The translations under genes and the position numbers were made by a program. 64,000 bases of DNA from Sphingomonas sp. GTDB lineage: Bacteria; Pseudomonadota; Alphaproteobacteria; Sphingomonadales; Sphingomonadaceae. The notes under the pieces are model-generated. The model did no database searches. It was not told where the DNA came from and saw only the letters and a program-made list of their open reading frames with translations. This document shows positions 1,720-4,847 of this stretch, piece after piece. The stretch is from assembly GCF_025353885.1 (NCBI RefSeq), contig NZ_JANXNX010000013.1, positions 1 to 64,000 of the forward strand, in the 5' to 3' direction. Each line of letters begins with the position of its first letter. Position 1 is the stretch's first letter.

Positions 1720-1757
1720 CCGCTCCTCTCCATTCCAACTAAGGCAAACAACCTAAA

Positions 1758-1922
1758 TTAGAAATTAGTGGGTTCACGAAATTCGTATCCACTCAGCTGC
1801 GCGCCATCCCAGTCGGTTTCGTTTCTCAAACTGTGCCGAGTGTCCTCGGATAGTGATCGAAAACTTTCAGCTGCCTCGTGAGCCTGACGCAGAATCTCGT
1901 CCATCGTAAGATGCTCGTTCAT
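1758..1922 (-). CDS. Small 54-residue protein coupled to the AvcD-like deaminase, function unknown
   Basis: I do not recognise this protein. It starts with an ATG that shares an ATGA overlap (1919-1922) with the stop of the upstream deaminase gene, so it is probably the last gene of the operon and translationally coupled. It begins MNEHLTMDEILRQAHEAAES and ends YEFREPTNF. It is rich in Glu, Asp and His, with no membrane segment or signal peptide, and the first half looks helical. It lies between the deaminase and the convergent uvrA end. By position it could be an inhibitor or accessory subunit of the deaminase; that is inference. A chance open frame cannot be excluded for 54 codons, although the exact 4-nt overlap argues against it. 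Confidence 0.55.
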   Translation of the reverse strand: MNEHLTMDEILRQAHEAAESFRSLSEDTRHSLRNETDWDGAQLSGYEFREPTNF

Positions 1923-3463
1923 TCCACCATCCCCTTTTTTGCCGTCTTAATGAGGGTGTGAATCTCGTCAAGCCGAGCGTTGTAAAATTTTTCGAGAAGA
2001 AAATTGCTTACGCCTTGAACGCCACCGACCGGCATCGCCCGCGTTCGGTTGAATTTCGCCACTGCTCCAAACTTTCCTTTTCGTGGACGCATCGAAAACA
2101 CTCGCTGATAGAGCGTCGGCGAAACGCCTTGGAATGGTCTGAACTGCACTGCTGAGGGCAAAGTTCCGATTTGGTCGTCTGTCGAAATTTCTCGGCAATA
2201 GAGCGTTTTCGTGAGACTCTTCGGATAGGGTTCGATGAACACGACCGACCTAATGCCAGCGGCGATGATATGCCTAGCGCAAACATGACAGGGGAATGTC
2301 GTGCAATAGAGTGTGGAATTGGCTACTGCCCTTCCAACCCGCGCAGCCTCGGAGATTGCGTGCATCTCGGCATGCACGACGCGCCCGAACTCGATGAGGT
2401 TTCGAACTCGAGCATCAATCGTTAACTCCCGCCACTGGCCATGAAGCAGTTGTTCAACAAGCTCGCTTAGCTCTTTCCCGCTTGCCTCGTCGGACAAAAT
2501 TCCAGCCTTTCTGAACGACTCTACAAGTTCATGAAAGATGTTAGAAATTTCTGCGGTATTGGGATCAAACTCGACAACGTGATCCCGGTTATCGGGACCG
2601 TTTCGCCCTTCGTGCCAAACGCCGCCCGCCGGGTAGGGGACATCGTTAAATCCTGTTGAAATCACCGTGCCGTCGTCGCCAATTATAGCCGCGCCGACCT
2701 GACGGGACAGATCTGCAGACCGCAACGAAACTGCTTTTGCGGTGAACATCGCATATTCGTCGACTGTCGGTGTGGTGAAGGGTTCCCCGAAAACAAGATC
2801 GACAAATCGCTTTATCTGGGTGTCTATTTGATCGTCATCCGCGACAAAAAAGTCAGCTTTGGGAAATGTGTTTTGAACGTCCTGAGACAAGTCTGTTGTA
2901 TCTCGTCGCTCGTCTTCTTTGATCGCAGCTTTTGCATTCTCGATATGCTCTTCACGGGTGTTCGTATGTTTCGACTCCGCAATCCTGTTTGCAAACTTTG
3001 CTATCCGATCACTCTCGCTTGCATACACAGACACAGTGTAGAAATTTCGTCCGTAAATTTTATCTAAGGTTTGAATTTCCTTGGGATTTTTGAGTGAGTC
3101 AATGACGAAAACATTCGCGCCGCCCAAACCCGTCTGGTCCGGATCACGTTTGGGCCGCAACGCGATAATTGCCGAAACGATCAAAGTTACGACACCGTCG
3201 CCGCCTTTATGCAGCTGACGAATTTGATCTCCTCCGTCCATTAAAGCTCGGACGCGCTCGTCTTCAGGCGTTCCTTCTGTCTTCAAGCCGATGAAACTCT
3301 GGATTAACCGGCTGACTTTGACCTCGTTGTACTGGTAATCATACGAGCAGAAATGGGCCTTGAGCTGGGTTTTTACTATCTCAAGATCGGTGCCTGCAGC
3401 ACCCACAAGCGCGATGTAGACGTCAGGACGGTCTTTAGCATCTATTGTTCCCCCCGCTAACAT
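1919..3463 (-). CDS. AvcD-like antiphage dCTP/dCMP deaminase with N-terminal P-loop-like domain
   Basis: This two-domain protein of 514 residues resembles the antiphage cytidine deaminases (AvcD/dCTP deaminase family), which deplete deoxycytidine nucleotides during phage infection. The N-terminal domain opens with a strand and a degenerate P-loop (ALVGAAGTDLE, about residues 18-28, lacking the usual GKS/T). The C-terminal domain (from about residue 235) has the dCMP-deaminase features SRQVGAAI, zinc ligand and catalytic Glu in HAEMHA (H364, E366), and PCHVC (C392, C395). The ATG at 3463 is chosen because it forms a TAATG overlap with the methyltransferase stop and has GGAG just upstream; a start 7 codons earlier is possible. 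The gene is visibly richer in A/T than its neighbours, suggesting transfer. Family membership is likely; substrate and trigger are inference. Confidence 0.82.
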   Translation of the reverse strand: MLAGGTIDAKDRPDVYIALVGAAGTDLEIVKTQLKAHFCSYDYQYNEVKVSRLIQSFIGLKTEGTPEDERVRALMDGGDQIRQLHKGGDGVVTLIVSAIIALRPKRDPDQTGLGGANVFVIDSLKNPKEIQTLDKIYGRNFYTVSVYASESDRIAKFANRIAESKHTNTREEHIENAKAAIKEDERRDTTDLSQDVQNTFPKADFFVADDDQIDTQIKRFVDLVFGEPFTTPTVDEYAMFTAKAVSLRSADLSRQVGAAIIGDDGTVISTGFNDVPYPAGGVWHEGRNGPDNRDHVVEFDPNTAEISNIFHELVESFRKAGILSDEASGKELSELVEQLLHGQWRELTIDARVRNLIEFGRVVHAEMHAISEAARVGRAVANSTLYCTTFPCHVCARHIIAAGIRSVVFIEPYPKSLTKTLYCREISTDDQIGTLPSAVQFRPFQGVSPTLYQRVFSMRPRKGKFGAVAKFNRTRAMPVGGVQGVSNFLLEKFYNARLDEIHTLIKTAKKGMVE

Positions 3464-4128
3464 TACTCCGCTGCCTCTGCCCAACCGGCCTCACCGCCCA
3501 CACGCGAATTATGCGCGTAAGTATCCCACCCGATCTCGTAGTCCTCGGCCTGGTCACCCCACACCGTCCACCCCTTTCGCGAGCCACGCCCGAAGATTTC
3601 GAGCCGTGTCGTGGGGCTGCATGCCTCGATCAGGTCGTACATTTCGTCGGGCTTCCGGCTGTGTTCGCGCTTGCGGGTGCCGAGCAGGTTGACCTGCCGC
3701 CGTCCCGCCGGGCCAGTGCGCGCGTTTTTGCCGCGAATGCCGAACAGGCAAAGTTCGGTGACGTTGCGGAAGTAGAAGCCGACGCCGCGACCGTCGGACC
3801 CGCCGTCCTTGCGGATTTTATGCCAGACGATGTTCGATTTATAATCGAAGCCCCATGCCTTCATGACGGCCAACCCCTCCGGCAGCAGCGCGTTCGGCAC
3901 CCACAGATACAGATGCGCGGGATCGGCGGCGCAATCGGCGACGGGCAGCGCCATGATGTCGAGCAGCTCCATGGTGTCGTAACGCGACAGCCGGCGATGT
4001 TCGGGGGCCATCTTGCCGGTGCGGTTCTGGAACCGCCACGGCGGATCGGCGAGGATCGTCGAGAAACGCTTACCCTTGGTCGCCAGGGCGAAATCTTCGG
4101 CGGCGGTGGTCGGTTCGTAATCAGCCAT
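3463..4128 (-). CDS. MT-A70 family adenine-N6 DNA methyltransferase (modification partner)
   Basis: A 221-residue SAM-dependent methyltransferase of the MT-A70 class. The catalytic motif ILADPPWRF has DPPW at residues 28-31, followed by the family pattern around SRYDTMELLDI and LYLWVPNALL, and later the loop WHKIRKDGGSDGRGVGFYFRNVTEL. In prokaryotes such enzymes are often m6A modification methylases, such as the M.MunI type. Its start (ATGGCTGA) overlaps the stop of the restriction gene by 8 nt, with AGGGG about 9 nt upstream; an ATG 8 codons earlier also exists. Its stop overlaps the deaminase start. The position between a BglII-type nuclease and the deaminase implies it protects host DNA from that nuclease. 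The recognition site cannot be read from the sequence. Confidence 0.85.
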   Translation of the reverse strand: MADYEPTTAAEDFALATKGKRFSTILADPPWRFQNRTGKMAPEHRRLSRYDTMELLDIMALPVADCAADPAHLYLWVPNALLPEGLAVMKAWGFDYKSNIVWHKIRKDGGSDGRGVGFYFRNVTELCLFGIRGKNARTGPAGRRQVNLLGTRKREHSRKPDEMYDLIEACSPTTRLEIFGRGSRKGWTVWGDQAEDYEIGWDTYAHNSRVGGEAGWAEAAE

Positions 4129-4756
4129 TGTCGTCGTCCCCTGAACCACCAACTACGATTGGTGCATCATCCTCGACATAGCAATGGCGCGTGATGCCGA
4201 ACGCCAGGATCGGACAGCCACCCCCGCCACCACCTTCGAGACGAGGTAACAGCTTGTCCATGTGCGTCGTTGACGCCCCGTATTTCGTCCCGATGCCCAG
4301 CCCCTTGAACAACGTCTGCAGATGGGTGGCGCGTGTCACGATGATGCCCACGTCGATCACCCGCAGGTCGAACAACAGCCGGAAATTATTCAAATCCCGG
4401 TCAAAGAACGGATCCTTGTTGTTCCATTCGATTTCGAGGCCAACTCGACCCTTGAAACAATCTACCTTGTGCGTCGGTGAGTCGCGCTCTTCATCATCGA
4501 CCTTGATCCGAGTGGCAAACTTCTTCTCAACCCAGCCTCGGTCGGTAAGAAACCCGTCGAACCTTCCGGCAATGCTCGACTTGGCCCCGCCCCCGCCGAG
4601 CACCTCACTACGCCGAAACTCGAATGCCCGAAGTGCGGCGATGACCTCGTGCCATTCGGCGAGATGCGCTGTTTCAAGAATGCCCGTCGCATTTCGCCAC
4701 TCATGCACCTCGAATCGCGCGGCGATATCGGACGGGATAAGGTGCGTGGTTACCAT
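4121..4756 (-). CDS. BglII/BstYI-family type II restriction endonuclease
   Basis: A 211-residue protein of the size of BstYI and BglII. The central block KVDCFKGRVGLEIEWNNK fits the BglII active-site spacing Asp-x8-Glu-x-Gln, here D99, E108 and E110, so the third position is Glu rather than Gln. The following segment (FFDRDLNNFRLLFDL) matches the family's conserved helix after the active site. The N-terminus FEVHEWRNATGILE is also family-like. I chose the ATG at 4756 because the 24 residues upstream look unlike the family and would crowd the divergent promoter; the longer form starts at 4828. It is the first gene of the island operon, so restriction and modification are expressed together. 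Cleavage of GATC-core sites is a family-based guess. Confidence 0.8.
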   Translation of the reverse strand: MVTTHLIPSDIAARFEVHEWRNATGILETAHLAEWHEVIAALRAFEFRRSEVLGGGGAKSSIAGRFDGFLTDRGWVEKKFATRIKVDDEERDSPTHKVDCFKGRVGLEIEWNNKDPFFDRDLNNFRLLFDLRVIDVGIIVTRATHLQTLFKGLGIGTKYGASTTHMDKLLPRLEGGGGGGCPILAFGITRHCYVEDDAPIVVGGSGDDDNG

Positions 4757-4847
4757 GCCGCCGACATGGAACGGATCGTGAATCGTGGCAAGTGCAGAAC
4801 GAAATCGCCATCTGGATTCCACCCCCACAAATCCCTAACTCCACCCC
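4757..4847. promoter_or_regulatory. Divergent promoter region between restriction operon and SRAP gene
   Basis: This 91-nt gap is the only upstream space for both the minus-strand restriction/deaminase operon and the plus-strand SRAP gene. I could not assign clear -35/-10 hexamers or a controller-protein box, and no C-protein gene is present in the operon. The assignment is by position only. Confidence 0.4.

Follow-up and report, generated by a model that had tools for sequence, protein, structure and literature searches.

A cluster of four overlapping genes in a Sphingomonas genome is best read as two defence modules placed at the 3' end of uvrA, in the second of which a small protein, S, would be the regulator, most likely the inhibitor, of an anti-phage deaminase, D. 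We give this reading a probability of about 55%. The cluster lies in a stretch of 64,000 nucleotides, analysed as a whole and called the window below. Judged from sequence comparisons, the first module is a type II restriction-modification pair of the ordinary kind (R and M), and the second a two-gene anti-phage deaminase system (D and S). The features are:

4121-4756, minus strand: R, restriction endonuclease of the BglII/BstYI family, 211 aa (PF09195 BglII, E 4.7e-47)
3463-4128, minus strand: M, MT-A70 family DNA methylase, 221 aa (PF05063, E 8.4e-30; PADLOC MTase_II, E 1.4e-85)
1919-3463, minus strand: D, AvcD/DcdV-type anti-phage dCTP/dCMP deaminase, 514 aa (NF041025, PADLOC dCTPase, AF2 model, fold search)
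2366-2374, minus strand: HAE zinc/catalytic motif of D, residues 364-366, invariant in 31 homologues
2279-2293, minus strand: PCHVC zinc motif of D, residues 391-395, with P391, C392, H393 and C395 invariant in 31 homologues
1758-1922, minus strand: S, small protein of 54 aa (position, 4-nt overlap, composition, profile score against shuffles, model)
1720-1757, no strand: short gap separating S from the 3' end of the convergent uvrA, at the border of the insertion site (D is at the uvrA 3' end also in loci L133, L080 and L155)

The open reading frames and the sequence bear out the first claim of the earlier note, that four minus-strand genes, in the order R-M-D-S, overlap end to start. The overlap is 8 nt long between R and M (4121-4128), a single base within TAATG between M and D (3465-3461), and 4 nt within ATGA between D and S (1922-1919). 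R starts at the ATG at 4756, and its reading frame stays open up to a GTG at 4828. The overlaps suggest that the four genes are coupled in translation, making co-translation likely; since D-S starts exactly at the stop codon of M, it is probably translated from the same messenger as R-M. The families first assigned to R, M and D were also right, as shown by profile matches in Pfam, PADLOC and NCBIfam. No match to S was found in these three collections, so its description as a small unknown protein stood, but its recurrence as a partner gene of D had been overlooked.

Both R and M match the families of BglII/BstYI-type type II restriction-modification systems with an MT-A70 methylase, in which nuclease and methylase genes are neighbours, as in the window. 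A search of 301 genomes of the order found R in 19 further genomes, and in 17 of these 19 loci M adjoins R. The adjacent pair is also present on a Roseomonas plasmid. Gene order and orientation vary among the other loci; in the window, D-S comes after the pair. Genome G035 has such an R-M pair next to uvrA too, there at the 5' side of the gene (L126:4345-5666). Site avoidance was considered as evidence for the specificity of R (AGATCT or RGATCY) and proved uninformative, as the observed over expected ratio of RGATCY, 0.51 in the genome itself, is also low in two congeners without R (0.40 and 0.66).

According to the earlier note, degradation of phage DNA and starvation of phage replication were genetically joined, with the deaminase possibly acting as a backup when restriction fails. 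The perfect gene overlaps, which make co-expression likely, and the plausible complementarity of the two modes of action speak for such a single selected system. However, neither R nor M was found near D in any of the 80 best D homologue loci (about 85,000 species genomes, up to 6 kb on each side), and D was found near R in none of the 19 further R loci of the order. Among 97 neighbour genes of D elsewhere, restriction genes are present only singly. The two halves also differ in composition: GC and GC3 are 0.575 and 0.675 for R and 0.638 and 0.793 for M, versus 0.506 and 0.534 for D and 0.497 and 0.509 for S (uvrA: 0.649 and 0.892). Such a split indicates that R-M and D-S are of different origin. 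The four-gene order, which the earlier note had proposed to seek in other genomes, thus recurs nowhere among the 80 D loci and 19 R loci; as neither half recurs with the other, we reject a conserved four-gene system, and one jointly selected system at this locus is very unlikely. The outcome goes against the joint system by the earlier note's own refuting condition, a deaminase never near the restriction pair in homologous loci. The lack of recurrence and the split composition lead us to replace this reading by that of two modules that met here. The C-terminus of M (...AAE) was examined as a possible insertion scar, and this was rejected, as it is intact and native when compared with the C-termini of M relatives.

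The R-M-D-S cluster is flanked by the uvrA 3' end on one side and by a YedK-like gene on the other. Genome G030 (L133), Sphingomonas montanisoli (L080) and genome G154 (L155) likewise have D convergent with the 3' end of uvrA, and in L155 this end is repeated. In the congener G006, uvrA and a YedK remnant flank a gene for a NERD/SEC-C protein. This makes the uvrA 3' end a recurrent insertion site in the order, and the presence of D in four genomes and of other cargo in a congener points to a hot spot with changing cargo. The loci at this site are:

window, 1720-4847
L133, L080 and L155
L189, 4789-6957

Close relatives of D in sphingomonads occupy another position, preceded by nrdB (the ribonucleotide reductase small-chain gene, by Pfam). 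In one of them, L035, a short open reading frame ahead of D looks like a repeated nrdB 3' end. These loci are:

L034, 4929-5984
L035, 4597-5649
L036, 4107-5159

D scores 412.6 bits against the NCBIfam model of anti-phage dCTP deaminases (NF041025, cut-off 400) over residues 16-459, and E 5.9e-140 against PADLOC dCTPase. The zinc/catalytic residues H364, E366, C392 and C395 are unchanged across 31 homologues. An AF2 model of D (pLDDT 88) shows two domains, the first adenylate-kinase-like and the second a dCMP deaminase, and a fold search with it retrieved the dCMP deaminases of human and T4 along with proteins related to adenylate kinase. With its profile score over the cut-off and both the domains and the HAE and PCxxC motifs present, D is a predicted member of the anti-phage dCTP deaminases. 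The same deaminase family includes that of AvcID (alias DcdV/DifV), a type III toxin-antitoxin made of AvcD and the AvcI RNA, whose deaminase has the same kinase-like P-loop-fold domain, dCMP-deaminase domain and HAE and PCxxC motifs. AvcD deaminates dCTP and dCMP; it is held by AvcI, which is lost once the phage halts host transcription (PMC10511110). In AvcID the RNA is encoded upstream; in the window the stop codon of M overlaps the start of D, and D is instead followed by a coupled gene for a small protein. The remark that there is no room for AvcI upstream of D was thus correct.

Open reading frames of 50-70 aa are common in homologous loci, either tight downstream of D or divergent just upstream of it. 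Their shared core, first seen as A..V..WP.WK, is of the form WL...WPxWK. A first profile was built from 13 open reading frames downstream of D, leaving out that of the window; among 22,445 stop-to-stop open reading frames, all its matches at E<0.05 were adjacent to D. Iteration drew in opposite-strand open reading frames just upstream of D, that is, the divergent arrangement. The enlarged profile gave 44 matches at E<0.02 among 7,237 small open reading frames, 33 just downstream of D and 11 divergent just upstream, and 29 of the 44 were not profile seeds. D-adjacent positions make up 5.7% of the 7,237; no match at E<0.02 was found away from D, though 94% of these open reading frames lie there. 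For S away from D in whole genomes, the search was too insensitive, and S may also occur in other contexts.

Several observations suggest that these reading frames are translated and inherited with D. A sequence resembling a ribosome-binding site precedes 46 of 52 S starts, and dN was below dS in all five closely related S pairs that allowed an estimate of both; three pairs of greater divergence were saturated. Distances between S proteins followed those between the D proteins, with a Mantel r of 0.66 reached in none of 5,000 permutations, and of 0.57 when near copies were removed. S is thus probably a family of small proteins that has been inherited together with D, in records carrying many phylum labels. 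It is absent from Pfam, NCBIfam and PADLOC, and apparently so far unnamed; PHROG 38465, of function unknown, has weak matches to three S proteins (E 1e-4 to 9e-3).

The family is also found in loci held out of the model. An Escherichia coli P4-like satellite carries, in order, psu, D, S, an integrase gene and tRNA-Sec. Its S, which begins MSIENGFIKHVVATKKIINEWPEWKK... and is annotated only as a hypothetical protein, was found in 12 of 5,426 complete genomes. In three held-out contigs of a viral collection (L240, L242, L243), S directly follows D. The satellite pair is:

L239, 1391-3086: deaminase gene and S, flanked by psu and the integrase gene

The pairing is patchy. At E<0.02, an S was recognised next to D in about half of the 80 loci. 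Of 399 genomes drawn independently from the phylum, 20 had D; apart from the window, S was found at one of these 20 loci, as a weak divergent S-like match, while two had an open reading frame at the AvcI position instead. Either S accompanies only part of the D family, so that the D-S pairing appears common rather than universal, or it diverges too fast for the profile. On a Pseudosulfitobacter plasmid, the deaminase gene is overlapped by a different downstream gene of 172 aa (L010:5625-6143), possibly another class of partner.

A tree of 100 D proteins was made by a quick method, with SH-aLRT support only and without placing the Vibrio cholerae AvcD. All 15 loci with a divergent S fall within one group of 30 rows (support 99). 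Downstream S is scattered over the rest of the tree, under labels of Acidobacteriota, Chloroflexota, Nitrospirota, Cyanobacteriota and Myxococcota; many of these records are metagenome-assembled genomes, so single phylum labels may be wrong. The window D groups with L034, L035 and L155, from three sphingomonads (support 100). AvcID-like loci (E. coli, Klebsiella, Photobacterium and Vibrio plasmids) are set apart in a group of their own, and the six loci with an open reading frame at the AvcI position all belong to one group of seven rows (support 99).

In this AvcID-like clade, the small open reading frames at the AvcI position share, with small variations, the C-terminus (A/S)xK(I/L)xW followed by the stop codon. 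The AvcI region, published as a non-coding RNA, may therefore also encode a conserved peptide. These open reading frames were considered as relatives of S, and no profile support was obtained. They were not found in S-type loci, and none ending in W was found upstream of the window D. Their positions are:

L136, 2209-2394
L137, 1716-1898
L138, 2169-2339
L139, L144 and L146, upstream open reading frames

Since the enzyme family already has an RNA regulator in AvcI (PMC10511110), the regulator of D could instead be an RNA, lying within the 3' end of M or in the S region. To this we give very little credence: the conservation of the S family is at the peptide level, with dN below dS and ribosome-binding sites, the 3' end of M is ordinary coding sequence conserved with its relatives, and an Rfam scan gave no match at the locus (Rfam may be without an AvcI model).

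Whether the S of the window belongs to this family had to be weighed separately. It lies right downstream of an AvcD-type deaminase gene and falls within the 50-70 aa range of the family, with 54 aa, like the open reading frames at the same position in L034 and L035. Its AF2 model is a two-helix hairpin (residues 7-22 and 26-42), confident for residues 11-30. It lacks both tryptophans of the core, and reached only E 1.4-2.4 in open scans with a profile built without it; the E value of 1.3e-6 obtained in the whole-genome search is not independent, as that model contained it. Nor did it score significantly against a model made from the proteins at the S position in L034-L036. The weak profile score and the missing clear match to these three proteins would fit a chance or decayed open reading frame, in which case the window D would act alone or under another control. 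We consider this unlikely, since the reading frame overlaps D by 4 nt, is preceded at its start by a purine-rich GGGG/GGTGG stretch, is of the right length and has the same composition as D. Moreover, with models built without it, it outscored 3,000 of 3,000 shuffles in one test and 4,994 of 5,000 in a second. Position, composition and the weak profile score together make the window S a probable, divergent member of the S family.

As to its role, we propose that S binds D and keeps it inactive, so that a protein would do here what AvcI does as an RNA. Synthesis of S would be tied to that of D on the same messenger through the 4-nt overlap, and infection, by lowering S, would set D free. The window S would act in the way proposed for the family. 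Relatives of D are toxic unless AvcI restrains them (PMC10511110, PMC9455884); a D without an upstream RNA would therefore need some restraint. This toxicity is what argues against the main rival to an inhibitor, namely that D and S do form a module but that S is an activator, a phage sensor or a subunit required for D assembly. Position and co-inheritance would fit any obligate partner, S comes after D in the downstream arrangement, which is the reverse of the usual antitoxin-first order, and about half of the D homologues are without a detected S, which is easier to understand if D is harmless even without S. A role of this kind is possible, if somewhat unlikely.

A protein inhibitor would bring D-S close to type II toxin-antitoxins, where two overlapping genes likewise encode a resource-depleting enzyme and a small helical protein. 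A co-inherited adjacent small gene is found here at the level of the S family, and for the window S by position and composition. However, the usual toxins are far smaller than D, S has no recognisable DNA-binding domain, and neutralisation by S is only proposed. Clover likewise combines a nucleotide-pool-depleting effector, the dGTPase CloA, with a dedicated regulator gene, cloB (PMC12265719). Its proteins are unrelated to D and S; CloB produces a nucleotide signal that inhibits (PMC12265719), whereas no enzyme-like domain is present in S. With the short satellite-encoded D-S pair, the role of S could be tested directly in laboratory E. coli.

Only in few cases is it known how defence enzymes that deplete nucleotides are restrained until infection. 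For the AvcD-type deaminase family, the published control is by RNA (PMC10511110). A widespread S partner would be a second mode of control for these deaminases, and annotations of the deaminase system as a single gene would miss a component. We suggest, tentatively and at somewhat under even odds, that a large part of the AvcD/DcdV deaminases, in several phyla and in the P4-like satellites of E. coli, are under the control of an S protein and not of an RNA. If so, the AvcID group, with its control by RNA, would be a single clade among systems under protein control.
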